From: Nereocystis luetkeana
Taxonomy: Eukaryota; Sar; Phaeophyceae; Laminariales; Laminariaceae
NCBI GenBank assembly: GCA_031213475.1
Contig: JARUPZ010000020.1
Coordinates: forward strand, 9,661,562 to 9,725,561
Reading direction: 5' to 3'
DNA: 64,000 nt
Part shown: positions 833 through 57,500 of the stretch, piece after piece
Layout: every line of letters starts with the position of its first letter
How positions within the stretch are numbered: position 1 is the stretch's first letter
Notes under the pieces: model-generated
Databases searched by the model: none
What the model saw: the letters and a program-made list of their open reading frames with translations, nothing else
What the model was told of the DNA's origin: nothing
Made by a program: the position numbers and the translations under genes

Positions 833-3800
833 GTGAGGAGGGGATGTGTTGGCGCTTTGAGGGGGCGGGGTGTACTGATGTCGTGCATAGTCGTAGGGTG
901 TATGTCAGTGGTAGACTTTGTCTTGGTCGTATCCCGCCGTTATGACAAGTTGTGCAGGGTCTGCATAGTGCGGATCCAACCCAGGACGCGTGTGCTACAG
1001 CAGTAGATCATGCAGGTTGTGCGGCTCCCACCCGGCAAACATAGGCTGGACCATACAGGTCATACAGATCAATAGTCGTGTCTTCTCTAATAGATCTACG
1101 GTAGATCATCGGGTGGGGATCGGTGGTCTGTCCGACCTGTGGACGCTTCCCCCCTCATCAAGTCCCACAGGCGTCAAGGGGGATACCCGTGGAGGTTAAC
1201 GCTGTCGCTCTCTTTGCCGTTGTCGTGTGGTGGCCCCTGTTTGGCAGGTGGAAGACGAGGAAGTTTCGGAGGCGGCTATTAAAAAGCTGTGCGAGGTGAG
1301 CCTTTTCTTTCTTTTGCCTTTGCCGAGCAAAAACCACTTCATCGGGCTATGATATACTACTTATGTCACAGTGCACTTGGTTGTGCCGCTTTTTGAGACG
1401 ACTGCCTTCGGGGGCAAACGTTTTCTACGTATTTATATTGGAGACCGCGGTTCGACCCCTAGATTGACCGCCCCTCTAGGTTGAACCTAGACTATACCCT
1501 TCGAGAACTACCTGGTATAAGTTTTTTGTTGTTTTAGTTGTGTGGGATCTGTTTTGGAGCAGTAAACGAGTCGATGCTACAAAAGGCCTTGACGCACGAC
1601 GCGTGATTGGGTATATAGGGGTATGAAATAGCACCTGTTGTTTCGGGGGCTTCTGGCTTGATTATAGTATAGGATGACTTGATTATAGTATAGGAGCTCC
1701 ATACCTCTACCTCTTGCAACAATCGACGTTGGGAAAAGAAGTTGACCCTTTTAAGACTGCAGCCCCGTTTTGGGGACGAAACCACTTGGAATTTGACGAG
1801 TTTGCCCCAAAAACTACGTAGAGTTTGACTGGTTTGTCCCCAAAACCATTTGGAATTTGACGGGTTTGTCCCCAAAACTACGCAGTTTGACTGGTTTGTC
1901 CCCAAAACCACTTTGAATTTAACTAGTTTGTCCCCAAAACGGGACTGCAGTTTGCCGTAAAAGGGTCAAGCTGTTACGGGGGACCATGTCAAGTAGGACC
2001 TACGGTACACACCAAAACCTATATATATATCGCTATTTTGACTAACTATATTTGGTTCTATTTACTATGGTCTCCCGCAATAGTCCTGATACTCAATGCC
2101 ATGAGCTATGCAGGCATGTATATTTTACCAGGTAGTACTGTAAAATGCAACACCGGATTGAACGGCATTGGGGAGCTTCCACACGTCGGACAGATGGGAC
2201 AGATCATGATCTATATATGTACAGTAGATTGGCTATATCCTGACCCGCCATTTATGAGAGAGTTGGGTGGTGGCGGCTTTTAAGCCAACTAACCGACTTT
2301 TAGTTTTGTAGTTTCGTAGTTGGAAAAAAAACGATCCGAGTCACAAAAGCGCCAGTCAGATACAAGGACCTAGAAACCCCGGTAATAATGGCACGTAGCT
2401 ATTATTTTCTGTAATGCCTTGCCAACTACTTGCTGCGAGAACGTGGTCGGCGGCAACTCCAACTTACTGCAAGACCTAGCCAACTAATATTTAGTCGGTG
2501 ACTTGACAGCAAGCCGGCTCACGGCCCTACCCTCTACCCTTACCTGTATTACCTGGCTAACTATTTACTAGTCGGCGACTCTAACTTGATCCCCTGGGGT
2601 GTTTTAAGATACCAACGAAGACAATGGTCGGTGAGTTTGGTGTTATTAGAGTTATCAACCATCTAGGAGCAGCGGGAGAGCCCAAGCAGTGAGTGCGGGC
2701 GGCAGATCATGTTGCCTCCTGCGTTCAACCGTTGGAACACGGACGTCAACCATTGTGTCATCCCCAATTCACACAGTGGTGTTTCGCTCTGATCACAAGT
2801 CTCTCTGTTGTTACCGCCATGTTTTCCCCTTCTGACGTCCCAACGGAGGTCAACTGCGATACCTACAACACCTGGCCAACTAAGAGCTACCCTGGTAGTC
2901 GGGAACGTAAGAGTCAGCCAACTCACAGCTCTACCCTTTGCCATTCTCCTGCTTTTTGGCAATTTTTTTTTTGTCGCCCAGCTTTGTCTGCACGTGGAAG
3001 TGTCCGAGGAGCTCCCTGCTGACGCCGTAGCTAGAGAGCGCGCGGCTTTCGTGTCCCGCTGCACCGACAGATTAGCCCGCGCGGCTGAAGTGCTCCGAAC
3101 CAACAAAGCTAGAGGTGGCGGTGGCGGGCTCGAGCGACTCTGCCGGAGCGATGAGGCACAGGTGGGCAGTTTTTTGCTTTTGCTCTATCGATATATAGCG
3201 TTATTTTTTGTCTGCCTGCGAAAGCCTGCTTTTGTCCTGTCTATCTTTTTTCTGTTTGCTTGCCTGTCTGTCTGCCCTTTCACCTGTTTTCCAGAGCGTT
3301 TCTGCATGCTTATGCCTCGAGTGGCTGGTTTAGTGCTCTCGATAACGATGTTTGCGCCTTTTGTCATTGGTGTGTTGCTCTCGGAAACACCGTCTGCGCT
3401 TTTCTGAGTGGTACCCTCTCCACCCCTCCCCCCGCCCCCCCCCCCCCCCCGGGCCTCCTCTCTACTCCTTAGCGGCGAAAGACAGCGGTGGTCAGCGCAA
3501 CTCGCTCTTTGCAGCTGCTCTTAGCGTATCTGGAGGAAGCCGGTGGGCGCATGCGGGCGCAAGGATTGTCGGTCCACAGCCACTGCGGCAATCAGCTCAT
3601 GACAAGGATGGTGACGATTAGGGTTCAGACGACCAGCGGGAAGACGGAGCTAGAGATGTTCCCGCACAATACCTTGCAGAGCCTTAGACAGGTGGGTGGG
3701 GAAAATATGAAGGAGAGCGGGCGTAGCGCGGGGTAGAGGCGTGATGTATTTCAAGCAGAGTTTGTTGAATAGCCCACGTATGTGACACCTTGCAGAGCCT

Positions 3801-6800
3801 TACACTGAGGTAGGTAGGAGATATATGGGGGGGGGAGGTGCAAAGAGCAAGGGTGGGGGAGGGAGGGGGGGGGGGGGGGGGGGGGCGTACTCATTTGTTG
3901 CTCGCCTCAGTCATTCGACCATTGACCACGCATCCCTTTCGAGACCGAGCACCGTTCCTGCTCCTAATAGAGACACCTCCAACAGTTGGGCGCTCATTAC
4001 GTTGTTTCCATATATTACATAGAAACATTTTCGTCATCTTATTCCCTTCCTGTTTGGCCGCCTGTGGTCACCATCTATCTCCTAGGATAGCGATTGTTTT
4101 CTCGCTGCTATATAGTGTATCAAACTCCTCCATGCCACATTCGTCTATTTCCCTCATCACCTCTTCTAACACATCCCGTCCCGCCTTGCACATTTCACAT
4201 TATCCTATTACCTGGTATGCGAGTCCTACTCTTTATTGCTATGCCACACGGGCACATCTGTGCATCTACTTCCTCCTCCCGGCTGCTGGTATACCCTCTT
4301 TCTTCTTTCTGGCAGGTCCAGGTCACTTACACGAAATCGCAGTTTCAGCGTTTTCGCGTTCTTCCTCTCATTTCCCCGTATATCTCTTAAGATTTGTTCT
4401 CCGATTCCATCTTGTTTTTCTTAGCGCTAACCTTTTCCTTCCTTCTATCCTTTTTTTTTTCTTCTGCCTTGTACCTTGCAAACTTCCCGGCGGACATCAC
4501 CTCTTCTTGGTTCCCCCCTATATCCCTCCATACTTTCTCATCCACGCTATCCTACCTTATTCCAGCTCGCCCTTTTGTTACAGTCTGCCATACAGCTCTA
4601 TCAATTGTGGTTGGTAACCTCTTTTTTGGCATGTTCCTTACTTTATATTGCCATTCAACTTTATCATGTCTCAATTTGTCTTGAGTGGGTATATTCCCAG
4701 ATGTACCCTTAATACTCTATCACTATTAATTATCGTACTTGAGCATCTTAGGATTTATTTAGCTGCTGTCATCTGTGCTGTTTCCAACTGTTTTACGAAT
4801 TTGGCGTTCCCTTCCGATACTTCTCCTGAATATTCTAGCTTTGGTACTATCACATTCATCAGGACAAATCTCTTAATCCTAGTGTCGAGGTGCGAGTCTG
4901 TTAGGATCGCATCCATGTTGCCTACGTGTGCTTTACCCTTGCCTATTACTTTTGCTATATGTGTATCCCAAGAGCAGTATTTTGATATCTTTACGCCAAG
5001 GTACGTATACTGGTCTGCGATCGGCAATTCATCTTCTCCCCGCTTCCAGCTGAAATTGCCGGGTTCGTCTTATCTTCGTTACACACAACTGCTGCGCATT
5101 CTTAAGGTTCGCCGTCACCCTCCATTTCCTAGTGTATTCTAGCGCCTCCTCTATTTGTTTCTGCAATCCTTCGGATGGGGTGTGATTTAAACTGCAGGAG
5201 GGCGTGTGAAATACGACAGTGTATTATCTTGCAGAGTCCTAGGCCGATGAGTGGGAGATATATTGGGGCGGGGTGGTGCGAGGGGGGGGTGCTCTTTAGC
5301 TTTGGCAAGGCGCGCGAAATAGCCTGTATATTGCTCCTTGTGCTGATATTTCACACCCGCTCTATTCTACAAAACTATATAGGATGCAATGTGTTGTTGT
5401 AGTAGAGGGCGCGAAATTGTCTTTATCCAATTCCAGGTACCTTGCAAACCCTTAAAATTGGGTGCGATGTGCTGCAGCGGAGTGTGCGTGGTTTTTGTGC
5501 AACATCGTGCTGGGCATTAGACAGATGGACGAGGGAGATATGAAGGGGGCGGGGCGCGGGGAGGGGGGGTAAGGGTTAGGGCACTGAACAGATGGCCGGG
5601 AGAAATATGGAGGGGGCTCGGGGTGGGGAGGGAGGGTAGGGGTGTTAGTTAACTTATAGCAGGGTGTGCCAAATATTATTAAGGGAGCAATCCCATACCT
5701 GCTACATATGAAACAGGGTACATAAATTCCGTTTTTTTCGTTGCTCCTCGTAAAAATCACGTGATAGCTTCGCTTACATTTTATGAAATGTGTTAATGTG
5801 TCACGAGCAAAGCAGAGATCGGTCCCCAGCCTGAATATTATCAGGTACCAGGTGCTGTACCTGGTATACGTGGGATGCACAGACTGCTGTGCCCGTGTCT
5901 TCCAAGGCTGGGCAACGCCAGTCACACCTGCACCACCACACCCTCTGAAGCATACGAGGCACGGTGGACAGGCTGCAGGGGGATATATGGTACTCTGGTA
6001 CCTTCCACGTACCAAGACGTGAGACTGCTGGTGCTGTGAGAGTTCGAGTACGAGTACGGTGCAGTCACAGCTATATCATATCCTACAGTGGTAGGTGTTT
6101 TCACCTTTTGCGCTACTGCTGTATATTTAGATATTGTGCGTATTAAAATTACCATATGCGCATATCTGTAAAAAAAAAATAGATGTATTTGTACGCGCGA
6201 GAGCAAAGCAGGCAGATTCTGAACCTTGTCCATGCAGCTGTGCGGCCCTGCAAACAACGAAAACATGGTCGAAAACGAACCTGCGGCATGGTAGGCCGAA
6301 ACTGACGGGCAAGCGCTGCGCTCGTATTTCCGTCGGTATATCCACGGGGGGGCATAGTAAATAGGATAAAATGTTGTTGATAAAAATTGGTGAATATATG
6401 GTAGGTTTTTTGTGTGTACCGTACCGGTAGGTTCTATTTACTATGGTTCCCCGTGAGTAGCCGCTATCTGCCTTCGGCGGTATCAAATCAAAGCGGAGCT
6501 TCGTAAGATGCATCCGATGCGCATACGAATACGCTGACTTTCAGCAGGCCAGTGTCATCGATTAAAAGCTACTATTGATACGCTGATGTTGGGCTAGGTA
6601 CCGCTCACGATTCTTACCGCGGGTTTCTCCTCGGGCACCATAACCCTACCACCCAGCTAGACACGCCAACGCTGGGCGTTCTGGGCGGTGTGGGTGGGCT
6701 CCGAAAGCTGGATGGTCTCAATTTTGCGTTGGCCCAAATAACTGTACGGGGAAGCTCGGACAAGCTCAAACAGGACCAAAGCATCGAAGGGGCAGATACA

Positions 6801-9353
6801 TACCCACACGCGCAACGGACGACGCCGCTTTCTTCAGGGTGCAGCCTTCTGATGGGCGTTCGAGATGATGGGTGCCGGACGATGAAAGCCAGCCCGCGTC
6901 CCAGGTATTGGCTCGGAAAAAAAGGTTGGACAGGCTCGCTCAGCGCTGCTGGCTGCTCATGCAACTCTTGATTTCGCTTTTGGTTCAAGTTTGGCGATCT
7001 CAGGTTTCTGTGCTCCACCTTTTACGGGCGGCGGTCAAAGTACCAAGATCAACCTGCATCTTCATCGGAGTGGTCGGCGTACCTTTGTTTCTCTCCGTAG
7101 TGGCCGGTCGCTCGCGGTGGCCGACCTGAGCATCCTTCATCCCCTGATGGGCACGGGCTTCGTATGAACTGGAGACTCTCGCTAATTTGAGACGAAATGG
7201 ACGTTGTGTTGATCCATTTTTTGTTGGCCCACAGTCATCCATCCCGCAAAAATAATTTCACGAGGAATTAAGCTCAACACAAAAAGGAAACTGACGCCCT
7301 CTGTACACTCCGGGATTGCTCCCTTGCTAACACCGTGCAAGGTTTCAACACCTTGCACAGATCATCTACAGATAGATCATGATCTAGATCATATTGTTCC
7401 TCACCTGGCGTTGCGAGAGATTGTGCAGAATCTGATCCAACCCAGGAAACATGCCCTACGCCATGCAGGGTCTGTGGCTTCCGCCCAGCAACATGAGCTA
7501 GCTCATACAGATCATACATATCATACAGATCAGGAATATATACACGTTTGCCGTGCGGATCTGTATGGCACAGCTCTTGCGCATGCCGGGTGGGAGCTGC
7601 ATGACCTGTACCGTACAGCTCTTCCATAGCATCTCATAACGACGACTACAGGATCGAGATGATTTAGATCGTCATCCTCTGCACGGTTTTGTAAACTCTG
7701 GGCAGGCGGTGGCGAACAGCCAGGGACCAGACTGGACGGCCGATACGACTCGGTTGCTCTTCAGGGGGCGCGAGATGCAGGGGAATGACAGCACGCTAGA
7801 GGCAAGCTCAAAAAAACATGAGATTGCCAAAAGAATGGGGAAAAAAGGAAACATGTTGCAGCTGTGCTTCCGCCAAAATGTTCATGGCACAGCACAGGCG
7901 CCATTATTTTGGTCGATAGACCTCTCTGGACCTCCAGTAAAAATAACACCCGTGTGGAATTAATTTGATGTCAATATCACACGGTGGTTGTACTGTATAC
8001 TGGGTGCCCAACGGATTGTAACGAAACTCAAGTTTGTTTTGGGGAGTCTGTTTAGTTTTGTCTGTTTTATTTTTCTTGCTTTGCTCCCTGGGTACCTCAA
8101 AAAAAAATATTTTTAATGTGTTTTTTTTCCCGCTCTTTGTTTGTTTTTTTGTTTTTGTGAACGGGTGTCTGCGCCCGCCCTGGATCCTCTATAGGAGCAC
8201 GAGCTGCTGGACGGCGCAGTGGTACAAGCCGCGAGACGTCTCGAGCCGAAGGTCGCCAACCAGGTGATGATCGACCAACGTGAACTCTCTGGCCATAAAT
8301 ATAGCCCCCGTTCAATGGTATATACTGTTGCTATTACGGGGAACCATAGTAAATACCTGGTAGGACCTACGGTACACACGAAAACCTATGTATTTCCTTA
8401 TTTTTACTCACAATATTTGGTCCTATTTACTGTTGTCCCCCGTAATATCAAACGCGGACTATATTCACGTCCGGAGAGGTATGTCTTTCACGTGTCGGAC
8501 AGATGATCTTCGTACAGCGGGTCACCTACAGTAGACACTTTAGTGGCCGCTAGGAGATACCTGGACCAGGGGCTGTGATTACGCTTTTGATTGACACTTG
8601 CCAACGTGCCGACATCTCTTCACCAACTAACCGCAACTCATGTCGTAAAGTGTATACGAACCTATCCCGGTATTGATTCCGTGCAATACCTGTTGAGTGT
8701 ACTGTAGTTACAATAAGGTCAGTAGCGTTTTTGACGCCGATAGTACTGACCCGTGCCAACCGGCAAATCCTTCCCCCCCCCCCCCCCCCCCTTCTCTACT
8801 CCAACCCCCCCCTCCCCCCATACACACACCGACCCCCACTCCACACTCCCACCCACGTCCCTACTCCCCACCCCCCACCGCTACCTCGAACTCCCACGGC
8901 CACCTCCCACGCCTACCTTCCACCCGCACCCCGACCCCCACGCCCATCCCCACCACCACCCCTAACCCTAACCCCACGCCTAACCTCACCCCCGCTCCCG
9001 CTCCTCAGACGGCGAACTCGACTCGCACGAAGAGAAAACATCTGGAGAGACCCACACAATCTGACGAAGCCGGGGGGGCGGCCGCTTCCCTGGCCTCGCT
9101 GGCGCATCATGGCGGGGAGGCAGGGGACGCCGCCGCGACGAACGCGATTGCCGCCACGAGCAACGATAGTCCCGCCTCGGGCTCGCCGGCTGCTCCGTCG
9201 CCGTCACCCCCGCAGCAGCGAGGCCTGAAGCGCGCGGCCTCTTCTGACGCGTGTACCCCTACCCGTGAAGGTCCCACGCCCCCCGGTAAGGCTAGGATTA
9301 ACGGCGGCGGTAGCGGCGGTGGCGGCGGTGGTGGTGGTGGTGGTGGTGGTGGT

Positions 9354-9388
<35 letters not shown>

Positions 9389-11499
9389 AGGTGGAGGTAG
9401 AAGTGCTCCTAGCGCGGGGGGGGCAGGCGTGCGAGACGCGGCGGTGACGAGCACAACTGCTGCTGCCATGGAAGTCGATGAGAGTACTCCGGGGAAGAAC
9501 ACAGAGGGCGGAGACGGTGGTGGTGGTGGTGGTGGTGGTGGTGGTGGTAGCGGTGGCAGTAGTGGTGATCTCACGTCGAGGGCGATGGCAACGATGGCGG
9601 CGAAAAATTCGGCGCAAGGGTTGCCTGGGTTTTTCGAAAGCGGCGTTGGTAGGGAGAGGCTGAATGGTAAGGTTCTCCCCCCCGAGGCTTCGGAGGAGTT
9701 GCGCAGCGTTGGGGTCGTCGGGGACAAGGGGGTTGTCGGAGGCGGAGGCGTTAAGCTTAGGACGGCGCCTCCGGAACTGCCCCTGCTCGAGCTGGAGAAA
9801 CCGTCGACGGTGGACACGCTCTTCGAGCTCATGGAGTACGGGCACAACGCGAGCGTGCTTGTCTGGGACCTATTGATGAAGATGCCGACAAACATGAGTC
9901 TCTACAACGGCTTCTCGTGAGTCGCAGTTTTCATTGTCGTGATCGTCGTGATCGTCCTTTTTTTTCGCTTTTGGTGGGAACGTAGCTCTTGGCGGTAATT
10001 TTTCGACGATAGAACTTTTTTTTTTTTTCTTCTTTTTTGCTTGACGGTAACGAATTTGTTGGCGGAAACGGTCAAAACAAAAGAATTTTGGCGGGGCACT
10101 ACTGCTGTACCATAGAATTACCCAGGAATACGAAACCATTTTTTTTTTTGTGTTTTTTTGTGGTTTTGGGTTCTCAAGTCCGCAAAGCGCTTTTCCGGGG
10201 GGGCATAGAGTCCGGACCGAATATGCTTGGGAAAAAGTACCGGAATTTATACTCGTACCAGGTTGGTTTTTGTGAATATGATGGGTCCTGATCACTGGGG
10301 TTTACTGTGGTCTCCAGCAATACTATTACGGGGGACCATATTAAATAGGACCTACGGTACACAAAAACCTATATATTTACCTGTTTTTACTACCGATATT
10401 TCGTCCTATTTACTACTAGTATGGTCCCCCGCAATATTACTGCTATAGCCTGGCTTCGGTAGCGCTTTTTGCTTGTGCCCATCCGTGGTCACAGCGATTG
10501 CTGTGGGCACGGCCTGTGTACCAGGGGGCTACGGTCACCCTTTTGAGACTAATACACATGCCATTCTCTCTTTACCAGCACCCACAACAATCACACCTCG
10601 GACGGATCATCTACAGATCATACAGATCATTCCCTCATGATGATCTGGATATCTCAGGGCAGGTAGTGTAGATGCCTGATCTGTGTGATTTATCTGTGGG
10701 TATTGATGCCGCGTGGGAGCCGTATTGTTTGCATGGTCTAGGACAGGATTCCCGGGTTGGATCTATACTGGGCAGACCCTGTACAGCACCACATAACGTC
10801 GAGCTATACATAAAATCTGCAGTAGATGATCTAGATCGTGATCTGTGCTTGGTGTGGAATATTAAACGTTGAGCCAATCGAATTTCGAAATGACGACAGC
10901 GCCGTGGACATCGGGGCTCGTTTCCGACCTCGCATGCCCGAATCTTCTTGTCCTGTCCGACGACCGCAATCTCCCGAAACGAACTATCCGAGGAAGTGTC
11001 GAGTTTTTTTACCCCATCCATTCCCACCAACGCACACGGTTGACGACAGCCTCAAAACTTACACCAACGCGGGTTATCCCACTTGAGACAGATCACGACC
11101 CACTGTAGATAACGTACAGTAGATACCAATCTGCCGTGATTTGAGATTTTGGGAATGATCTACAGTACAGGTTTGACCCAAGAAACACGTGCTATGTAGA
11201 CCATGCAGACCATGCGGATTAGCATCCGGCTTCCATCCGGCAACATGAGCTACCCGTAGATGATACAGATCAAGAACGTACCTGTCCTGAAGGGTCTCAG
11301 TGGGAATGATCTGCCTGCTCTGTGCAATCTTTCTCTCGCAAGTCGGTTTTTGGGTGAAGTATGGAGCTCCTGATGTTACTCGTTTCCAGGAAGCTGATGT
11401 ACGTATTCCTTGGTACTCCGCTATTCTTGAGTATATACGTAACCCCTTCCCCCTCGACAATGATGCAGTGGTTAAATTATTAAGGCGAGCAACAAATGT

Positions 11500-11533
<34 letters not shown>

Positions 11534-14500: not shown

Positions 14501-17411
14501 CAACGGCACCATAGAGGGGCCATCACTGCTGTAGCGGTTCTTGGGCAAAATAAATCCTGAATACCGTTGCTCCTGCACTGAGGAACTTATTGCACAATGT
14601 GGGCGAAAAAAAAATAATGTGGAGACACTGAACATTGTACATCCTGTAGTCTATGGAAGTATGCTACCATGCCTGGTAGGACACCATCATTAGGCGTACC
14701 GAGAATGATGAAGGATGGGTGGGTGGTTGGGTGGGATTGTTGTTGCTGTAGTTTTTTTTTTTTTTTTTTTCCGAGTTCGTGGAGATGAAATCGTTGTGTA
14801 CCTACTGTAAGTACTGTAGAGTACATGGGCCATCAGCTTTTGTACTTTCGTCATGCTTTCTCAAACGTGATTTTCCGGGTGAATTACATTTGTAGCACTT
14901 CCAGCGAGGAGACCCAGAAAACCAGTGGCCTAATATAGCGCGTGTCTGGAGTAAGGGCGCATGCTTGTTCACGTACCAGTATTTTGTGTTCGATGGGCAC
15001 GGGCAATCACTAGTTTTCACGCACTGCTGCACGAAGTACGTTGTTTTGCGCATCGTACTTTTCTATTGTACCAGTAGCTATTACGGGGGACCATATTGTA
15101 CTACTATGAGCCATGTTGCGGCTCACCATATTAAATAGAACCTACGGTAGACACAAAAACCCATATATATATATCTATGTTGACTAACAATTTTTGGTCC
15201 TATTTACTATGGTCCCCCGTAATAGACTATCGACCGATGCTTCAGCGGGGTGTACCTAGGACATAGTGCCGGCGGTTTGTATGTGTTTAACCTACCCGCA
15301 CCTCATACGTACGTTTCGTACTTAGTTCGGACGAACTGCTGGTCCAAAGTTCGGCCTCTCCGCCATTGCGGCGGAGAGGCCCTGTTTAATCCCTTGTACT
15401 GGTATATGCTCAGCGTACACCTTGAAGAAATAAGCCTGGTATAGTATGGTTTGGCACAAAGGTTTTTTGCCCCATCTTTACTCCTCATGATCCTGGGCTG
15501 ACTGACGTTCACCGATCAGAGCTGCCGACGTATTATTGCTTCCTGGGGTCGGGGCTTCCTTCCTTGTATTTCGCGCATCGGACAGATCCCACCCCCTTTT
15601 CATCACGTCATGGTGTAGATAGTTGGGGGCAGGTATTATATTATATGATCTGAACGACCTACGACTGACTGTAGATCGTGTTGGACGGGTGGGATCTGTA
15701 TGATACAGCTCTTTCGCACGTGGGTATTTTTCCGGGTGGGGATCTGTATGGTACAGCTCTTGCGCTACATCTCACATCGGCAAACATACGATCTGTGCAC
15801 ATATCGATGATTCTACTGTAGATCGTGATCTGTCTCTTATGTTTGAAATACTTCACAGAACGCGCGGCAAGCAAAACATCGCAACCCACACGAGTCCCCC
15901 ATTTTTTCACTGTTGAAAACCCGACGTCCTCCGTCGCGGCATCGTAGGGATGCGACGGTCTATGGTCGTACGACTACGGCCATGCATGACGTTAGTATCC
16001 CCCCCCCCCGCCTGTTTCCCCCCCCCCCCCCAACCTGCCCCGCAGGCTCAGCTGCTGGTGTCCCTAGTGCCCTACTTCCGAAACGAGTCCGACGGCAGCA
16101 AGTGCCGTGAGCTTTACGAGCTCCTCTCGGACTTCATCAGCAAGGGCAACATCGACATCCGCTCTCTCTGCGCCGCCCTGCCGGCATTGCCATCGCCGCT
16201 GCCAACGAGCTACCCCAACGGGGGCGGCGGCGGCGGCGGTGGCGGCGGCGGCGATGATGGAGACGTGGCGAGGAGAATGTCGGAGACGCTGTACGATGTT
16301 GATGGGCCTTTGCCGGGGCCGGCGCCCCCCGACGAGCTCGAGTGGACGTCTACCGCGGTCGCGGCGCTTTCCGAAGCGGTGGCCGCGGACGGGGAGCCCG
16401 CGCTGACCCAAGCGGTGCCGATCCTGGTGTGGCTCATGCGGCTGATCGTTGAGCCTCGGGTGACGACCTCGGACGGACACATCTCCGGCTTGCTCGGGCT
16501 GGCCCGCGTGATCGTGCGCTGGCTCGGGCCGCAGGGGAAGGAGGCGGTGGGTTTGTGGGGGTTGGAGGGGATCACTGCCGTAACGCCTTCTGCGGGGGGA
16601 GGGGGAGGGGAGCAGCAGCAGCGGCGGCGGCGGCGGCGGGGGGAGGGGCTGCTGCACCATGTTTACCACGAGTGTCTGTTTGATATCGCCACGCACGATA
16701 ACCATGGGCCGCTCGCGCCTCCTAAATGCAGGTACTGGTGTGGGTTGAGGTGCGGGGATGGTGTACATATCGTTCGTTTTCCATGGGATATCCCATGAGA
16801 TATTCCATGAGATATTCCAAGGGACATTCCATGGGATACCCCTTAACATGCCGAGTCCCATAGGAACCGTGGGAAATCCCACCGGATACCAAATTGAGAG
16901 ATGTATATATATATATCATTAGTTGATTTGTCATAGAATATCCCATGGGCGGTACTGTAATAGTACCAAGCAACAGCAGCAGAACTGAATGTGGCTTGTA
17001 AACATAGGGGAATACCTGTTTTTTGGGGTTCCGACTAATATGGTCCCGCGTATTAACCTAACCAGTCATCTTTAACTCATTGTCTCGACAACACGCCCGC
17101 ACCGACCGGTGTGCTCTGGCTTTGTTTTGAAATTCCTGACAACTTGTCGTGGTCCCCTTTTTGCTGCCTCCCCCTGCGTCTCCACGATGAAAATTCTTGA
17201 TGGAGCAGGTCCGAGACTTGCAGAGCGAACGCTTTCGGACTGTTGACAGATCTCGCCACCGGCTGCCGCGCAAACGTGGCCGTCTTGGTTAAGCTTCTCC
17301 TCGAGCACCACTCCGGTTCTTCCCCCTGCCAGCCTCCAATGGTCGATCTTCCGCCGCCGCCTTCTCAAAACGCCTCGTCGCCCACGGCTGGTGGTAACGC
17401 CTCTGACTCTC

Positions 17412-17455
<44 letters not shown>

Positions 17456-36503: not shown

Positions 36504-36536
<33 letters not shown>

Positions 36537-39500: not shown

Positions 39501-42500
39501 TAGTCCGACAAGGGTTCGCGGGTCGGGCCGGGTCAGGTCGAGTCGGGTCGGGGGTGGATGACCCGGCCCGACCCTTGAGGGTTTGAAAACCTTCCGACCC
39601 GACCCGACCCGACCCGTGATATTTTAAGAAGTTCTTGACCCGATCCGGGTCGGGTCATGACCCGCGGAGAGCTAGGCATTCCCTTTACAGCTGGACCCAC
39701 TTTTTGGAGACAAACTTCTTGGAAGTAGAGTTCGAAGTGTTCGTAGTGGTGGAGGCTAATGTGTTGAATGTGCTTGGATGTAGTCCTGTGGGTTTTATTA
39801 TTATAGTTGATGTATTGGGTGCGTGAGTACACGGTTAGCTCCAGTAGTAAACAGGCTTGAGTATGTTGAATGTATTGTGGGTTTTAATATGCAGTAGGTC
39901 TCAAAATACATGTTTCCTTGTACAGCAACATCAGGTACCTGGTATGTTTTGTTTATGCCAGGTGTACAGCAGTGGTTTTGAATATAGCAAGTCTGTTTGA
40001 ATTCAAGGCGGGTTCCAATGTGGCGTATCGTCCAAAATTCGTTTGCTTCAGAGAATAGCTGTATGTTTCAATATTCCCTCTCTTTCCCTTCTAGTCTCTT
40101 GTCACTTTCTATAGCATTTTGTGACTTTTGTGACTTTTGTCATTTCGTAATTTAAGATTTTTGTCACACTATGTTGTCACCTTTTTCGTTTCAACATTTT
40201 TTTCAGGTCTGCACTGCCACTTCCGTTGCTTTCGTCGCTTTTGTCGCTTTTATCACTTTCTCGTTTTTGTCATTTTCGCCACTTGATCGCTTTTTTCACT
40301 TGTCCAGTAAGGTATTTAACGCCACTTTTGTCATCATTACGACTTTGTCCCTTTGTCGTTTTTCCTTTTTTTTTTCACTCGTTCTTCGTTTTTTGTCTCT
40401 TTTGTTTTTGTTGTCACGTCTTCACTTGTCAGTTGCAGCAGTCGCTTTCATCACCTTTGCCAATTTTGTCCGATATGTCAGGTTTTGTTCTCGTTGCTTG
40501 GTCCCTTTTGTCATATTTGTTTGTCAACTCACCCCCCCCCCATTCAATCTCTTTTTTTTCTTTACTCTTGTCGCCTTTGTTACGTTGTAGGGCTAGGGTT
40601 GCTGGCTACGGGAGGTAGAGCGCCGAGCCTGGGCGGATGCCGCGCAGTGGCATCCGTAGCGACCGAAGAGTACGAGTCGTGCTTGCCCCCAACCATGGAT
40701 AAGGGGACCCGAGAAAAATACGTGAGTTTGTTTTGTACGTTCGTCTCGTGTGACAATACGTCACACCTCGAAAATATCAGACATATCACGGTCTATGTAC
40801 TACTGTAGATCGTGTAGAACCTAGCCTGCCTTGCTGATGCTGTGCAGACTGTGTATAGTACAGATCCAACCTAGGAAACTTGTACTAAATCATCCAGAAT
40901 ATACGAGTCCCACCCGGCAACATGAGCTAGATCATACAGATCATACAGATCATCTGCCCTGAAAGATCTAGATCACTGAGTAGAGATCAATCTGTCCGCT
41001 GTGCGCAATGCTTCCATCGCGCGTGCTATATGATACACAAGAGTGTATGGCCTCGATGTATCTGATCTGTATGATCTAGCTCACTGAGTAGAGATCGATC
41101 TGTGCGCGGTGCCGCAATGCGTCCATCGCGCGTGCTATATGATACACAAGGGTGTATGGCCTCGATGTATTTTTGTTCCTTCCTTTCCTCTCCTCCTTCT
41201 CCTCCTCAGGACGAGGAAGTGATCGTGCTGCCGAACGAGGGGGAGGTGAGGATGCTCACGGACCCGCTAGTGCTGGAGGTGATGCTGGCGGGCAGGGCCA
41301 AGGCGGCAACACTCCCGCTAGTGCGTATGCACTCGGAGCAGCTGCAGTGCGTGCTCCGCCTCTCGAGGGTAAGCGCCCTCTCGGCACCAAGATGTGGGTT
41401 GACGGCTGACCGCAAGCTCGACCCGTCATGGCCTCTTCAACCTGTTTCTACCGCCCGTGTTTTTGTTTTTCTTCCCCATTTGTTTCTATTCAGCCTTATT
41501 TTCTTTCTCCCTCCTACTAGTACGGGGGGGCCATAGTAAATAGGACCAAATATTATTATTGGTAGTTAAAATAGCGAAATATTTAGGTTTTTGTGTGTAT
41601 CGTAGGTCCTATTTAATATGGTCCACCGTAATAACGGCAGTCGTAACTCAGATCCGGGGTCACATACATGGCAGGCAGTCTCTCCTCTCTCTCCCCCCCC
41701 CCCTCCCCACTACGGCTTGTTCGTGCCTTCAGTGACATTTTTATCGCGAGAAGACTTCAGCCCTTTTTTTCCCTCGTCGACTCGCGACTAATCACATGGA
41801 GTACGTTAATTTAAGTCTGAGTCCAAGCCGAAGCGGTTTTGTCCCTACACGGGTTAAGATTTGATATGCTTTACCACTCTGTTCCGAACTATAATCACCG
41901 TTTGGTTTAATAATTAGTGAAAAAACGTTTATTATATAGTGGGACGGAGTGGTACTGCTGTGGTTGTAGTATGTGGCCGTGACGGTCTAGTTTTGGCCCG
42001 TCAAGGTCTCTTTGACGAGATGTAATGCACTGTTTTTAGTGTGGGTTCCGTGACGGCCTTGACGCCTGTCCGTCAAGGGGCGCCGTCAAGGGGCAAGAGT
42101 GCGGTCAACCGGAAAATATTCTCCCCTATACTGATGTTGATGTGAGGATTTCCTTGACGGCCTTGACGGCTGTCCGTCGAAGGGCAAGAGTGCCGTCAAG
42201 TGATGGATTTTCTCCCGGGGGTGGTACTCGTGCTGCTGCAGTAGGGGGGGGGGGGGGGGGGAGGGTCGAAATGTATCGGTTGAAAATGAAGCGTAACGGT
42301 TCAAATGAAACTAGCGGTTGAAACGAAACTTGACGGCCTCGACGGCTGTCAGTCAAGGAGCAAGCGTGCCGTCAACCAGGCTTATTTTCTCCTGGGTAGT
42401 ACTGGTGCTGCCGCAAGGAAAGGTGGGGTGGGGGTGGGATGTAGGTGTTGACATGATGCGAAACGGGTGCACTGAAACTTGGTGGTTGAAACGAATTTTG

Positions 42501-45500
42501 GCGGTTACAACGAAACTTGACTGTTGAAATAAAACGCAACGGTTGGAATAACGTACCGGTTGAAACGAATCGTAGCGGTTGAATTGCAACGCATGTAGGG
42601 GTTGGAATGAAACATGAAAACGTAAACGTAACGGTTCAAGGGAAAACGTGGTGGTCGGGATCTAGCGTATCAGTTGAAACGAAGGCCGATGTATCACACT
42701 CAGCTTGCAAATTCCAAGGCTCTTCACCGGCCATGACTTAATCCGCGGGTCGTATTTAGGTGGCCTTTCAAATATCACGGATCGGGTCGGGTCAGGATGG
42801 TTTCAAGTTTTCACGGTTTTTGCCAGGTCACCCTGACCTGACCCGACCCGACGCGATCCGACCCGATCCGGCCCGACCCGACCCGACCCGACCCGACCCG
42901 ACCCGCGACGTTTGGCCTGACTCATGTACAACCCTGGAATTTTTTCGAATCGAACGTGATTCTCGAAAAGTCACTGCTGACATTTGTTTCGTGCTTTTAC
43001 AGTTTTTAACGAAACGTGACCGTTTGCACGAAACACTTGAACTGCCTCGGCTCTCGGCTCTCGGCTCTCGGCTCTCGTTGCATCGTCGTCACTCAGCATC
43101 TGTGCTGGAACAGCCCAAGAGCGACGGAGGTGGTCCTGAACGAATGCTCCCGGGGGCTTCACGAAGGCCAGATGCATACCTTCCACATGCACCTCAGGGT
43201 GCTGCTGGGGCTCGTCGGCGTGGAAGACCAGTGAGCAAAAGGGTGGCGCTTACTGTGTTGGGATTGGTGGGGGATAGACGAAGGCCAGATCGACACCGTC
43301 CATATGTGCACCTAGGGGCGTGGTGGTGGCGGGGTTGGGGTTTGTGTTGCGGTTGGAGTTGGGGCCGGAGTTGGTGTTGGCTGTGGTGTTGTTAGGGTTG
43401 GCGCTGGGACCGATGTTTTGGGTTGATATTGGAGTGGGGGCTGGCGTTGTTGTTGTTGTTGCTGTTGTTGCTGTTGTTGCTGTTGTTGTTTTTGTTGCTG
43501 CTGTTGTTGATATTGGTGGTGGTGTTGTTGCTGTTGTTGATATCGGTGGTGGTGTTGTTGCTGATGTCGGTGTTAGCGTTCAGCCGTCTCCTTGAAGCGT
43601 CAGCAAGAGTGTTGGTGTTGGTGCCAGTATTAGTGTCGACGTAGCGTAGCGCTGGCGTTTGTGCTAGCCCTGTTGGTGGGGTGCTGGTGTCGGCGTTGAT
43701 GTTGGCGTCGGGGAGATCGATGGGGCAGCAAGCGCAATGTAGGCGTTTTCGCTGTTCACCCATCTTCTACTGTACATGACACCTAAATTCAGCTCTATTT
43801 CGAAGTGATTCGTCCCCACCATGGGAGGGCAGCCCTTAAGGGCTTGAGACTACTGTAGGGAACCGACCAGCGCCCCGAAAAAGGGAATGGAGATTGTGTG
43901 CTTGAGTACGAGCCTTTCCATTTTTGTCGTCATTTTGACGTTCCCCGTGTCTGGTTTTATCGCAGGCACCAACCTCGACGAGTGCTGCAGGTTGTCGATC
44001 ACTTGATCAGGGCGGCGGAAATGAATTTGGAGTTCAACAGAGAGGTAAGGCGTGTGGCGTCTTTCGGGCTCGTTTTCGGTGTCGTTTTTTTTTTTTTTTT
44101 GCGGGACGGTTCGGTGTGCTGAAACCGAACCTGCTCCTCTCGGGGGTCAGGTCGGGTCAACGTGCCCAACTGGGCTAAATTGACACACGACACGAACGTG
44201 GAAGTGTGGTGAGCTTAAGCTTTATTTTTACCAATCCGCCGGAGGATAAAATAAAAAAAAATAAAAAAAAATAAAACCGAAACGAACAAGCGAGCGCAAC
44301 GACGAAGCGAACGGAATGCATCACGTTCCGCGCGGTTATTCACTTGGTATTTCCACAAACGCGATCACCCAAGCAATCCCAGTTGCTGCTGTCAAAGTAA
44401 GCTACGTACTATCAAATCTATCAAACTCAGCCAAATAATATGAATCATAACGCCGAATTCTCTCTATTATGACAACAATGTGCAGATTGTTGTCATATCG
44501 GTTCTCGATCCCTAGAAATATTTTTATGTTTGTGTCAATACGATGCCAGTTTTTTTTCGTTCATGATCCCGATCTCTACCATATCGTACAGACATAGAAG
44601 CCTTTTCTCGCTATCACGTCATAACATGGCATATCATATCATATAGTGTCACGTTTTATCGCATGATATCATACCTGGTATATTAATGGTATCGTATCAT
44701 ACATCATACAAGGAATCGTACAATACATCCTGCATATCTATCATGCTGTTTCCGTTCATGACGTGTACCGACCTCTTGCCCCTCCCCCTCAGTGTCTGGA
44801 AATACTGCGCGTTTTGGCGAGGGGCCTGCTGGGTGTGACGCCTGAAATTATCCCGCCCAGCTGCCTTCCCGGCCTGAGGGTGGCGCAGCTGGGGCAGACG
44901 GAGTCGTTGGTGACCAACTTCGTGCTCAACACGAAGCTATCCGCGGATGTGAGTGTTGCGGTGGAAACCCTCAATTTTTGAGCTTAAGCTTTATTTTTAC
45001 CAATCCGCCGGAGGATAAAAATAAAATAAAAACTCAATTTTTATGGAGAGGGGAGGGTAGGGGATGGGGGTGGGGTGTTGCTGGTGGTGGAGGTGGAGAC
45101 GAAGTCGTTGGTGACCAAATTTGTGCTTTGTCCGAAGCTTTCCGCGGATGTGAGTGGGACGGTGGAAGCCACCAGTTCTTGTTTGTGGTTGGGGGAGGGT
45201 GGAGTGATGGGACGGGGTGGAGTGGGGCGGTGGTACTGGTGGTACTGGTGGAGGGGTGCGGTGTGGGGAGAGGGGTAAGGGGAGAGGAGGGGAGTTTGGG
45301 GCAGACGGAGAACGGTATTGAAGTGGTGTGCTGTTGATGATGGTGTTGATAGCGACGGATGTGAGTGTTGCAATGGAAGTCCGCAGTTTTGGTAGGTGAG
45401 CGGGTGGCGTCGTCTGGTTGTTTCGAGCGGAGGGGGGGGGGGTGCGCGTGGGCGTGGGGTTGGCGAGGGAGGGCGGGGGTTGGGGTTTGTGGAGGAGGGT

Positions 45501-51500: not shown

Positions 51501-54500
51501 CCTACAATAGCAATCTAGTTACCGGTCAATGAACCAATCAATCAATGATGCTAGTAAAACAACCAAACCAAACAAGCATACCAATCCAACCAACCCACCC
51601 AACCAACCAATCGAGCACACCAATCAGATCAACCAACCAATCAACGAATCAATCAGCCAACCATCCGGTCAATCAGTCGAGCATCTCAGTCAGTTCTATC
51701 TGGTATCGACCGACCACCAAATCGACCATTCCAATAAAACAACCAACCAATCCACCAATCAATCGACGAATGGATCGATCAATCAATCCACCCGTCAATT
51801 GACGAATCAGATTAGCCAATCAACCAACCAACCAGTCGCCCCAAAGAGTCAATCAACCAACCAATCAACCCACCAACCCCAATCGATCGCCGAAAAGCAG
51901 GGGTGGCTGAACCGGAGAAAGAGACCCAAATCGAGGGCCTGTCCAAGGCGTCCATCGAGCGTGCCGATTGGTTGCTTCACCAGCTGATGCTCGAAGTCCC
52001 GAGAGTGGTGGAGGTCATTGAGGTCACCACCGCAGCCGCAGAAGAGGTGACAAGACCCCCGCGAAAACTCGAAAAAAAAAACGTGCAGAGATTGGGATAC
52101 GGTAGACCGCTGCTACGACTACGGTGGCACCTACTTTTGCCCTCTGAGGCTCCTCGCCTGCGGGGGTCTTTACCGCGCCCAAAACTGACCTTTGGAACAT
52201 CTGAGTTAATATTGACCCTTTTAGAACTGCAGTCTCGTTCTGGGGACAATTGACAGATTACTTGGAATTTGAGTGGTTTGTCCCCAAAGCGGGACTGGAG
52301 TTCTACTAAAAGGGTTAATTATCCCGGTGGACAAATCCGTGACCTCCGTAGGTGTTATTACTACAGTAGCGAAAATGATTGTGTGTAACACAAGTTCGGT
52401 ACTTGATACCAGATAGTTTCGAAAAGTGAAGGAGAAGGTCCGTCAAGTCATAAAAATCTTCGGCCAAGATGTGCTGTAAATATATCCCGGTTGTGTCACG
52501 TTTCGGTAGCTCTCGCTAGGAACTCGCGCCTGTTTTTTTTTTTTTTTTTTTTTTTTCTGGAACTTTCGCGAACTGAGGTATGCGCTGGTGGAAGGCATAG
52601 CGCACGCATACTTCGTACCTGGTAGGTCACTTTGTTGTCACTTTGTGCATGCCAGCTTTCACACAAATAGCAGGGCTTGCCTGCCCGCGCCGTCCCAGGC
52701 CCAGGGCTTCCTGGTGCTATGCACCAGGTCATGGCTCACGACCACGTGATGAACGACATGCTGCCTGCACTCTTCTCTGCAGTCCTGGCCCATTTTACCG
52801 AAGATTGCGGGCCTGCCACAAGTTTTATCTCCTACTATGTAGATTCGTAAATGTCTTATCTCCCAATATGTAGATTCGCAATGCCGTATCTCCCACTAAG
52901 TAGATTCGTGTGGGAATATCCCCTTAAGACTACGCACGCTCGCCACAAGAGCGTGCCCATCGCATTATATTCAAATATTATCGAATAGCAGGATACTCCG
53001 GCGAGCAGTTGGACTTTTCGACGAAAAACGGACTTTCAAAACTCGAGTCAGAATCGAAAAGCAGTCAAAACTGGGTGAGACTCCGTTGCAATTCTAAATT
53101 CAAGGTAGTAAGCCCGCCCACACCAACTTCAAGATGAAACACTTTGACCAAAAGTGTAGTCGTTGCGACATCTATGTACTTTTGTTTCCTCTTGAAAATG
53201 CTGTGGTCGGAAATTTATCTTGGAGCTATAGTGGGAACATTTTGCTCAGTTCGCGACTGCCTTTCGATTCTGGATTGGGGTTTGGAAATCATGTTTTTAC
53301 TTTGTTCCGACTTTTTTCCGACTTTTTTCCGGCTTTTTTTTATTTTTATCTCGACGTTAGGAACGTGTGATTTTTCATCTTGAACTTGATGTTTTTTTCA
53401 TCTTGTACGTGCACTAGTGTTTTTTTTCTTATATCGCATGCAGTTTCGCACATGTATTTTCTCCTGAAATGATCAGGTGGAGTATCTTGTTTCTCGTTTG
53501 TCGGTTTTATTGAGGCGAAACGACAGGGAGGATCGCGTATTTCAGCTGGGTTCTGCGCATGGTTTCGCATGGGTAGCCCTTGATCGTACTATACTGTAGT
53601 AACGTGCAGTGTGCTATTAATAGTGCCGGTTGCCGGTATAGTGCCGGTATTGTTGGCCGGCGCATACCATACCGGCACTATAGGGGAACCATTTCTGTAT
53701 ATGTACCAGGTACTTTATATCGTAGATTTTCGGTCGGACGGCGCAGATCCCCGGCTTCATCCCGCTCAAAGGTAAGGCAAGAAGCAAGCCATGCCCTATA
53801 TCGTAGGCGGTTGTGTAAGTTAGCAACCCATCGTGATAGGTTAACGCCGCTATGATGGAAACCCCATTGAAACGCCTTCAGAACTGCACTCACGGTTTCG
53901 GGCACAAACCACCTGGAGTTAGCGTGGGATCAGTTTTGCACTACAGTAGTGGAAGGGTTGAATCGAAACCCTCCCCGTTTTTGCGCAATTGCTTCTTGTA
54001 GAGACCCCACGGTGAATGTAAACCCTCTCTATGAAGCCCCCGCTGTGAAACCGTTTACGCGCCGCCTCTATATATGGAAACCTCCTTAAATCGAAACCCT
54101 GTTCCTTTTGCCCAGCGTCTGTTGTGATGAAACTCCCTTCAGGGGCCGCTGATGAACTGCTTAATGCGTTCAAACACCTTAATCTAACACCGACCAGGTA
54201 TATTAGTAAAACCCTATACCAGGATATATAGAAACCTTTACTTAGGAATATACCGGGTATATAATTCAGTAAACTTGTGAAATATCTACTTTAGTAAAAC
54301 CCTCTGATGAAACGCCTGCTTTTCTGACAGAAACCCTTTGAATTCGATCACTGTCCAGGTTAACGACAGGACGGCCCAGCCGCACTTCACTGACCTGTTG
54401 CAGGTGATGACAAATTGTCTCACCGGGAGCGGCACCGAAAAAGAAGACCTCGCGAGGAACCTTCCGAGTTTTTTCGACAGCTTGTTCAAGCTCGACAGGT

Positions 54501-57500
54501 GCCTTTTTACTTTCCGTTAAATTAGTAGACTCCAAATATGAATACGTCAGCTGTGAATTCGATCGATTGAGTGGTGTATATTGAACTTTCCGAGTGGAAC
54601 AAAAATACCTCCCCAGGAGCCTTCCGGGGTTTTTTCGACAGCTTGTTCAAAGTCGACAGGTGCCTTTTTTTTGTTGAAATTGTGACTATCTATACCCTGC
54701 ATCGCTAACCTCGCTTCACTACGTTCATCGCTCGCGAGTCAAGGACTGCATAACTGGTTCTAGGTGTTGCTCCATGATAGACTACACGAGTACGGTTAAC
54801 TCGTGATGATGTGACTGATTGCAACATCTCCCGTACAGGAACAACTATTTTCTCGTACCTCGATATTGTTAACCCCTTTAGAACTGCAGTCCCGTTTCGG
54901 GGACAAACTACTTGAAATTTGACTGGTTTGTCCCCAAAACGGGACTGCGGTTCTAAAAGGGTTAAGCACACGAAACGTAAGCTGTGAGTGTTCGAGCGAT
55001 TGTGTTGTTGATGTCGAACTTTGCAAGCTAAGATATTCCTGGTACGTCTGCCGCGCGTATTCCATTTTCCATTGAAATGCGTTTTATTCTCATATGGCTT
55101 AAACTGCAAACACCGTACTGTAGCTGTGAGGTGGAGAACCTGGCCAGAAAGCAAATATTTTGCAAGCGGCGTGTAGGTTCATTTTGTTCGGTTCAAAGGT
55201 TCATGTGTGTGTGTTATGCGTTGTCTTCACAGTAAGATTTTATTTCTAATCATGTATAATAGTAGATCACTGCATCCAGTGTTCGTCTTGGTTATCAATT
55301 CAGCATTCAGCTTACATTCTTTTTTTGTCACAGTCTGTTAAGCAGGAAAAAAAAAACATCGACGCAAGTGCATATATTGAGAGCTCTTCACAGGTCGTGA
55401 CCGAACCTTCGAGTCGTCGGATTTTTTTTTCATCTCACGGGGTCGCGTCGAGTTGAGTCGGACCAGGAGGTATCTGAACTCTCGCCAGTCGGGACGGGCC
55501 ACCCTTAGCCGACCCGACCCGACTTAACCCGCGAGGTTTGACCCGACCCGTGAACAGCTGTGCGTACAATATAATTGCACGTACAGCCGAGGACAATATC
55601 GAATCATGAGCTACCCACAAGCAGCATTGAGTACATACGTCGGTAGAGCGGGTATGCGTATTTGGTCGGTCTCAATGTGAAAAGACAGATTCGCCCTTCT
55701 TTGAGACGCCGGTTGTTCTTGCTGTGTTTTCAGCGCATTTTTCTGCTGGCCAATCGGTGGTGGTCGTGATGGTGGTGATGGTGACGATGGCGGTGTGTTT
55801 CCTTCGGAGGATGCGTTCGTCCCTCGGGTTTCGCCAATTCTTACAATATCTTTGCTTCGTTTTTGTCGTCCTTTTTTTATGTCTGCGCCGACCGTTCGGT
55901 AATGGGGTGGATGGCGGTGGCGGTGGGGGTGGTGTGGGTGGCGGCGGTGCAGAGTACGGCGAGAAGACGACGAAACGAAGGGAATGATGCTGAAGTTCCT
56001 CGCCAAAGTCATGGACAAACACCCGGAACTTTGCCGCTTCCTGGAGCAGGTACGGCAACAAAACAGAACAGTACGCGATACCGCTTACAACATAATTCCC
56101 AAGTTATTTGTCCCTGACAAAAAAAAATATAGGTGCTGTGCTTAAGAGGTTACAGTGGACTCTTTTTTTCGGCCGGGCTCATTTTTTTTGTGTGGCTCAA
56201 CGCGTATGTTTGTTGTTTGCTTGTGTTTTTTCATCCCATTCACTATTTTCGCGCTTGTTTTGTTTCTCCCTCCTGTTGGTAGTCGAAACTCAGATCCGGG
56301 GTCACATACATAGCAGAAAGGCTCTCCTCCCCCCTCCCTGCCCACGACGGCTTGCGCCTTCCGTTTTTATCGCCAGAAAAGTTCAACCCTCGTCGACTCG
56401 TGTGTCCGACACTCAATTCGGTGTCCCCACTACTGAAGTAGGTTTTTATTTTTTATTTTTACGTTTCGTTCAAACGTGCAGGCTACACCTCTTGAGGATG
56501 TTTTTTTTTTTCCAACGTTTTTTAAGGTGGAGGCAAAAGCTCTTGAATCCCACTTCCTTGAGTGTTGTCGCGTATCGTGCAGATGTAGTACCTAGCGCGA
56601 GCGATTTTGTTCAACTTCCCGTTCCACGTTTTGTTTTTGCGATCGTTCGCTGATAGCAACCAAACGACCCAACGGTCCTTGTTTCAAGACCGTTGGCCGA
56701 TCGGACAGGCGGGGGACTCTGCCGATGATGAAATACCGCCACTCGACTATGCTCTGTACTCGTGCCCTGCCTTGTCCTCTCTTTTTCTGCCGGATCGAAG
56801 CACCCTTTTTTCCTTTTTTCCTTTGATAATATTTCGAGGGCTTCCTTGCGTTTTTGCATTGTTTACCCCCTATGAGTAATTTTGCGCCTTGGCGCGACTA
56901 CCTGCGAGATTCTGGCAATTGCCGAATGTGAGATCAGTCAACAAGCAGCAACAGCATAGATAGCCTCTGCCGAGAATGTCATGAATTTATCATTACGTAA
57001 AGCGTACCTGGTACCGCTTTTTTGGAAGATTCACATGCACACATTCATTGGTCAAATATTGTTTTTTCGGGACATTTCATCGGTCAAGCCAGACATGTCC
57101 TTGCACCTAGGTCCCGCTGGGCTCCTTAAGTCCACGCCGACCTGGTTCCACTTGGAGCTGAGCTCTCCCAATAGTCGCTGGGCATGCGTTTATTAGCAGT
57201 CGCCGGTAGGGCCCACCAAGAACCCTGATCGCACGCCGCCCAACATCGAGAGCCGGCCACAGCCAGCTAACATTTTCGCCGAATACGTTGCAACTGCTCT
57301 TGTTTCTCTGCATGTATGATACCGTACGTAGTTCGTTTTTCTCCCGTCTATCTTCAAGCCGTTCACTGGAGTGCTGTTCTTGGTGTTTTTCTTACTGTAA
57401 TTTGCTTTTCTTGGTTCTGTCCTCAGTCTGTTCTTTTGTGCTCTTCTTACTGTAGTTGCTTCTCTCGGTTCTGTTGTTACAGCAGTGTTGTTCCAGGTGT

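Follow-up and report, generated by a model that had tools for sequence, protein, structure and literature searches.

Decayed copies of exon edges in a USP9X-like gene of the brown alga Nereocystis luetkeana as probable products of background short local duplication

Local duplication of short pieces of DNA has been described in several systems. In vertebrates, Pace et al. (2009, PMC2671141) described duplications that arise during repair through the capture of proximal DNA; 753 of 1,136 lay within 3 kb, the proximal class had a mean of 162 bp and four donors were partial exon/intron pieces. Schimmel et al. (2021, PMC8355091) worked with human and mouse cells and reported that fill-in synthesis at DNA breaks gives small tandem duplications. 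Moreover, Ma et al. (2016, PMC4974935) reported that an intron of the potato RdRp gene was gained by tandem duplication over an intron-exon boundary, and Lehmann et al. (2010, PMC2891723) that coding-sequence tandem duplication lay behind novel intron positions in Drosophila. In this study, a 64,000-nucleotide stretch of contig 20 of Nereocystis luetkeana (GCA_031213475.1, JARUPZ010000020.1, positions 9,661,562 to 9,725,561 of the forward strand), hereafter the window, was analysed, which carries on its plus strand a large intron-rich USP9X-like gene. Six exon edges of this gene have same-strand partial copies in the adjoining intron, with main alignments of 57-102 bp. These copies are very probably traces of a background of short local duplication, in which the exon-edge partner was kept recognisable by coding selection, and no mechanism peculiar to exon edges was shown. 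Internal gene duplications, as surveyed by Gao and Lynch in 2009, reportedly may include exon-intron borders; the survey is not known to set decayed edge copies apart as a class.

The genome comprises 465 Mb in 1,987 contigs, and the window has a G+C content of ~53%, which, like its poly-residue runs and the length of its introns, is reminiscent of brown algae. When the catalytic exons of the gene were joined, they matched the Pfam family UCH (PF00443, E 3.4e-54), and the best solved-structure match was human USP9X/FAF-X (5wch, E 7.5e-62). The gene model was built from codon-pair scores and splice-site matrices, so that its exons, of which 32 were used, are mostly ab initio predictions; initial models were discarded, being over-split or skewed to low-complexity coding sequence. 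For exons 12 and 14, continuous alignment to human USP9X (5wch) backs the acceptors, and the remaining edges rest on coding potential and splice consensus. The later exons gave no credible homology match among solved structures, and their edges therefore stay predictions. Known RNA families gave no match in the window at gathering scores. An earlier note on this DNA had claimed decayed copies at the edges of seven exons, given without coordinates, and these exons were mapped to the model from their numbering and places. The exons and copies are as follows, with identity given as identical alignment columns.

3473-3691, plus strand: predicted exon 4 of the gene model, donor edge at 3691, donor CAGGTGGGT (score 6.3)
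3787-3864, plus strand: exon 4 donor-edge copy 1, exon part 20/23, intron part 35/55, donor-like GAGGTAGGT (score 5.5)
5225-5285 and 5500-5570, plus strand: further copies of the exon 4 donor edge, by alignment
5438-5464 and 5588-5662, plus strand: weaker copies of the exon 4 donor edge, by alignment
20839-20930, plus strand: exon 12, acceptor edge at 20839, UCH domain (DVDEFLLVF...), aligned to 5wch
20506-20574, plus strand: exon 12 acceptor-edge copy, exon part 18/20, intron part 31/49
23869-24012, plus strand: exon 14, acceptor edge at 23869, VLAGDNKFLCAQCNKK..., aligned to USP9X (5wch)
23195-23289, plus strand: exon 14 acceptor-edge copy, exon part 24/34, intron part 50/69, aligned AG lost
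29959-30264, plus strand: predicted exon 17 of the gene model, acceptor edge at 29959
29847-29906, plus strand: exon 17 acceptor-edge copy, exon part 30/44, intron part 16/20, AG lost
43152-43208, plus strand: copied interior stretch of predicted exon 27 (which ends at 43230), not an edge
43269-43329, plus strand: interior of exon 27 as copied in the following intron, 45/61
44793-44948, plus strand: predicted exon 29 of the gene model, donor edge at 44948
45083-45181, plus strand: exon 29 donor-edge copy 1, exon part 55/70, intron part 24/32, donor 9-mer identical
45300-45390, plus strand: exon 29 donor-edge copy 2, exon part 35/63, intron part 24/30, donor 9-mer identical
54331-54498, plus strand: predicted exon 34 of the gene model, donor edge at 54498
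54597-54687, plus strand: exon 34 donor-edge copy, exon part 53/63, intron part 25/33

Six of the seven claimed edges (exons 4, 12, 14, 17, 29 and 34) were borne out, and at exon 27 the copied piece stops 22 bp inside the exon, so that it is the interior that was copied. The statement that copies of 5' edges lie upstream and copies of 3' edges downstream held in 6/6 cases in this gene and in 2/2 cases in other genes, namely acceptor 6021 in locus L046 and acceptor 4405 in locus L053, both UCH genes; in the latter, the exon start at 4405 has two upstream copies (the three stretches being 3818-3905, 4074-4135 and 4389-4475). This direction rule would be explained by gene layout. When a duplication crosses a 5' edge, it is the downstream copy alone that meets the rest of the exon, so that the unused copy lies upstream whatever the mechanism; at a 3' edge it is the upstream copy, which places the unused one downstream. 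In a genome search at E<=0.01, the exon 34 copy matched only itself and its true edge, which indicates that it is not a mobile element. A mobile element carrying exon edges was rejected on this result, genome-wide dispersal having been tested for the exon 34 copy alone among the six edge cases.

The sample consisted of the window, fifteen 10-kb stretches at other UCH genes, three short kinesin stretches and eight loci from a UCH search, which together gave 27 stretches with 127 exons (32 in the window) in 254,710 bases, five stretches being without an exon. In the edge test, a local copy of a 60-bp window centred on the edge was sought on the intron side, with a main threshold score of 17. Query windows more than 50% masked were removed in the earlier tests and those more than ~42% masked in the final tests, in which Tandem Repeats Finder (TRF) arrays of period <=60 were also masked; exons outside the window with a coding score <8 and targets shorter than 200-300 bp were left out. 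At L053 3835-3900, in another UCH gene, an edge copy had been miscalled as an exon by the gene model; this false exon was left out of the final profile and counted in the earlier, less-masked test. One acceptor was set at 27979 and should be 27977, which put one test window off by 2 bp. With masking, five of the seven named cases reached the threshold (exons 4, 12, 17, 29 and 34) and exons 14 and 27 failed. The unmasked alignment of the exon 14 copy is long, but poly-C and poly-T inflate its score, and its masked score was only 13. Lower intron-side scores in the window were found at edges 28306 and 42399 (14) and at 38962, 54330 and 57813 (13).

Chance did not account for these matches. When edge windows were compared with 700-bp stretches of other loci, score 18 was reached in 0/1,648 comparisons, with four at score 16 and 11 at score 14. 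On the intron side, 8/206 edges had a copy at score 18, including one edge of the false exon (L053 3900) and one simple tandem repeat at window edge 60065, which adjoins an 11-bp tandem repeat and was not a match in the final masked test. The search on the wrong side of the edge gave 1/203 at score 18, the one being the false exon in L053, and reverse-strand copies were found at 0/209 edges at score 17. Thus, the copies are true local duplications, as the earlier note had proposed. Furthermore, the self-comparison that it had called for revealed that same-strand similarity in the window (arrays included) at 40-300 bp exceeded that at 8-32 kb ~50-fold and that of the opposite strand at 40-300 bp ~8-fold (score 20 in both cases).

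The earlier note had singled out exon edges, and this part of it failed. Local copies were abundant in the sampled introns: at score 17, pooled counts were 7/209 for edges, 74/1,868 for windows 60-360 bp inside introns and 1/254 for windows lying 90 and 120 bp within exons. The corresponding counts were 6/209, 50/1,868 and 0/254 at score 20, and 6/209, 35/1,868 and 0/254 at score 24. One-sided Fisher p values for edges against introns were 0.72, 0.50 and 0.23 at scores 17, 20 and 24, values that are rough because intron windows overlap one another. At the other loci, 2/156 edges stood against 46/1,401 intron windows at score 17 (p 0.96). The offset profile, drawn from 360 bp inside the intron up to the edge, had no peak at the edge, and an earlier less-masked count at score 20 gave 7/206 edges (one a false-exon edge) against 258/4,614 in introns (5.6% per side). 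None of the three test designs revealed edge-specific enrichment, which was rejected. The matches were commoner than with unrelated introns, the comparison that the earlier note had set, but rates were similar in the introns of the gene itself. Among the local pairs listed in the 27 stretches, 9/70 touch a predicted exon and 61/70 touch none. Edges share the general duplication process at about the general rate, and duplications are most readily noticed at an exon edge without being commonest there. These rates cover the introns of the sampled genes, and an even genome-wide rate of local duplication is not claimed.

Background duplication could lead to the observed arrangement as follows. Many short same-strand local duplications, of tens to a few hundred bases and mostly within ~1 kb, would arise in introns, and some of them would cross an exon edge by chance. 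The copy that remains attached to the body of its exon would alone keep the reading frame and stay in use under selection, and its partner would decay in the intron; coding selection, by holding one partner still, may leave such a pair recognisable for longer. Small mobile-element insertions and minisatellite growth would later separate edge and copy. The duplications may be born tandem or near-tandem by break repair, either through staggered-break fill-in or through short-range template capture, and break repair is probably the source of the local duplications, by analogy with vertebrates.

Three young tandem duplications in the window serve as examples of the background.

40952-41170, plus strand: young intronic tandem duplication, not near any edge, 108-bp unit, 90%
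57877-58136, plus strand: young tandem duplication, 129-bp unit, 97%
63616-63801, plus strand: young tandem duplication, 94-bp unit, 100%

Among the non-mobile pairs, all four that reached 60 bp at ~90-100% identity were clean tandems with a fill of 0.96-1.04 (window 40959/41067, 57877/58006 and 63616/63710, and L035 2857/3025), and all lie away from edges. The edge cases are older than these, with spacers of 32 to ~510 bp. Tandem duplication with one copy in use, as the earlier note had it, fits the one-sided direction, and the tandem form itself was seen only in the four young non-edge pairs.

The present copies can be set beside the described systems. Short copies of neighbouring DNA, with partial exon/intron donors included, are common to this gene and the vertebrate cases (PMC2671141); there, however, the copies lay inside interrupted transposons, pairs <50 bp apart were excluded and one copied exon was inverted, whereas here they are same-strand edge copies in a non-vertebrate genome. 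The four longer young pairs resemble the duplications at breaks (PMC8355091) in being clean head-to-tail duplications of ~94-168 bp, with the mechanism experimental there and inferred here. As in potato (PMC4974935), the duplication spans one intron-exon boundary, splice signals included, but a new used intron was the outcome there, and here the copy appears to be unused within an existing intron, which it would lengthen. In Drosophila (PMC2891723), too, exonic sequence was locally duplicated and one copy ended in an intron; the intron position was new there and is without known change here. Decayed exon-edge copies as a class were not found described in the openly available literature, among the top matches listed. 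The earlier note knew of no described element with such behaviour, which is right only insofar as none is needed, and local repair duplication with partial exon/intron donors has been published for human (PMC2671141); no new element or mechanism is required.

At exons 14, 29 and 34, a dispersed repeat lies in the spacer that separates the edge from its copy.

23353-23799, plus strand: TRIM-like mobile element, 447 bp, TGT...ACA, with ~85-bp terminal direct repeats
44979-45031, plus strand: ~53-bp dispersed repeat in the spacer from the exon 29 edge to copy 1, also at 44210-44261, with matches in loci L033 and L046
54535-54589, plus strand: ~55-bp dispersed repeat that takes up most of the 65-bp spacer from the exon 34 edge to its copy

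The TRIM-like element, with the ends TGTAGG...CCACCACA, separates the exon 14 edge from its copy; their spacing is ~606 bp, or ~159 bp if the element is subtracted. It has at least 47 genome matches, its own place and partial pieces counted, from the best 40 of 315 candidates that were scored. With flanks read by eye, a 4-bp flanking repeat was present at two of three other full copies (L007 and L008, not L004) and was not seen at the copy in the window. The ~55-bp repeat occurs at six other places with 85-87% identity (contigs C16, C19, C20, C15, C5 and C2). At exon 12, a 24-bp minisatellite (GTTACCGTTACCGCTGTCTTCATA) at 19830-20800 flanks the edge copy on both sides and parts it from the edge. 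Such later insertions (exons 14, 29 and 34, and the minisatellite at exon 12) may be part of the answer for the spacers.

Several points weigh against background duplication, or against its tandem form. Each spacer was aligned to the sequence expected of a full tandem unit, with 500 shuffles, and 8/9 comparisons were not significant (p 0.15 to 1.0), exon 14 giving p 0.026; as the spacers do not align, tandem birth is not established for the edge cases. Likewise, the short pairs of 25-38 bp and ~90-100% identity (nine, plus element terminal repeats) are not tandem, and the pasting of a piece nearby fits the edge cases as well as tandem birth does. In the window alone, the edge rate at score 17 was nominally higher (5/53) than that of intron windows (28/467, p 0.24) and that of edges elsewhere (2/156). 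Around seven copies of the exon 14 element, 43/478 flanking windows had a local partner, and these were clumped: 28 fell in L006, 12 in L003 and 3 in L008, and the other four loci had none. L006 holds further pieces of that element, and with L006 set aside, two of six loci have local partners. The sampled genes are all UCH genes except the three kinesin stretches, and most edges come from ab initio prediction. A hand-made sum of the six main alignments gave 200/254 identical columns in the exon parts and 181/258 in the intron parts; the gap has the direction expected if coding selection holds one partner, but it is weak, is reversed at exons 14 and 17 and comes from columns that are not independent. 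Finally, the insertions of elements would have followed the duplications, an order of events read from a single genome. A clean old tandem unit at the edges found no support in 8/9 spacer alignments. Two routes are left for the edge copies: tandem duplication followed by loss and by insertions at the junction, of which the duplication step is what break fill-in yields (PMC8355091), or the copying of a piece over a short range in break repair, as described for vertebrates (PMC2671141).

Other explanations were weighed on the same evidence. If exon edges were preferred targets of duplication, for example through breaks at R-loops or chromatin borders near splice sites, an excess at edges would be expected. 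Copies at six edges of one gene, the window counts given above and the pooled score-24 counts (6/209 against 35/1,868) point that way, but neither the window (p 0.24) nor the pooled sample (p 0.72, 0.50 and 0.23) reached significance, no excess appeared elsewhere (2/156 against 46/1,401), the offset profile is flat at the edge, and the window was chosen since copies had already been spotted there. We regard preferred targeting as very improbable. Retention of the copies as working decoy or alternative splice sites, which the earlier note had raised as a source of such sites, seems highly improbable. The used donor 9-mer is unchanged in three copies (exon 29 twice and exon 34), the donor score of copy 1 of exon 4 is 5.5, with 6.3 at its edge, and the exon 12 copy acceptor outscores the used site, 5.5 against 2.1; yet a usable donor is gone from the copies of exon 4 at 5225 and 5500, and the exon 14 and 17 copies have lost the aligned AG. 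If reading continues past the donor of exon 29 or of exon 34, a stop follows within ~35 bases, so use of those copies would truncate the protein. A joint reading, in which splice-edge duplications in this gene are commoner than duplications in its introns and are partly kept as decoys, agrees with several donor copies whose full-strength site is unchanged in surroundings drifted to ~56-84% identity, and is likewise given very little credence.

The position of small elements suggested, in addition, that the duplications are very long target-site duplications from the insertion of such elements. An element separates the edge from its copy at each of exons 14, 29 and 34, and in locus L042 one separates copies from each other; the exon 34 homology stops 3 and 7 bp from the repeat, and exon 29 (2 bp) and L042 (2 bp) fit on one side only. 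Across ten families, however, similar flanks (score >=20) were found at 7/99 element copies (7.1%) against 65/1,500 random places (4.3%), and the positives include the cases that prompted the idea. Long target-site duplication was unsupported across the 99 element copies and is considered very improbable. Intron gain by tandem duplication (the AGGT model), in which a duplicated piece of exon would provide splice sites for a new intron in use, does not fit either, the copies lying inside one predicted intron, on the noncoding side of the used site.

Background duplication, which is preferred here, suggests that an intron-rich genome lengthens its introns partly by steady short local duplication. 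It also suggests that exon edges act as recorders, where the coding copy is held still and old duplications stay readable. Moreover, exon-edge copies with good splice sites mislead gene finders, as the false exon at L053 3835-3900 exemplifies.

Further repeats were observed in the window and the sample. A ~110-bp dispersed repeat occurs in both orientations at 1971-2083, 6344-6454, 8330-8447, 10323-10439 and 15125-15225, with further copies at 19332-19443, 22904-23016, 26972-27083, 37596-37690 and 41517-41633; 24 near-full copies are present in the sampled loci, and in L042 one copy sits among the members of a 61-bp tandem array. In the intron 3' of exon 14, a long degenerate array of palindromic TGGAAGCTTCCA-type units with periods of 12 and 21 extends over 24600-26960. 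The UCH search, in addition, returned matches in series with near-identical scores, 11 on contig C20 at ~5.38-6.30 Mb and 18 on contig C10 at ~9.93-10.91 Mb. These series look like amplified regions; their spacing is mostly ~40-60 kb, and nearly all members have internal stops.

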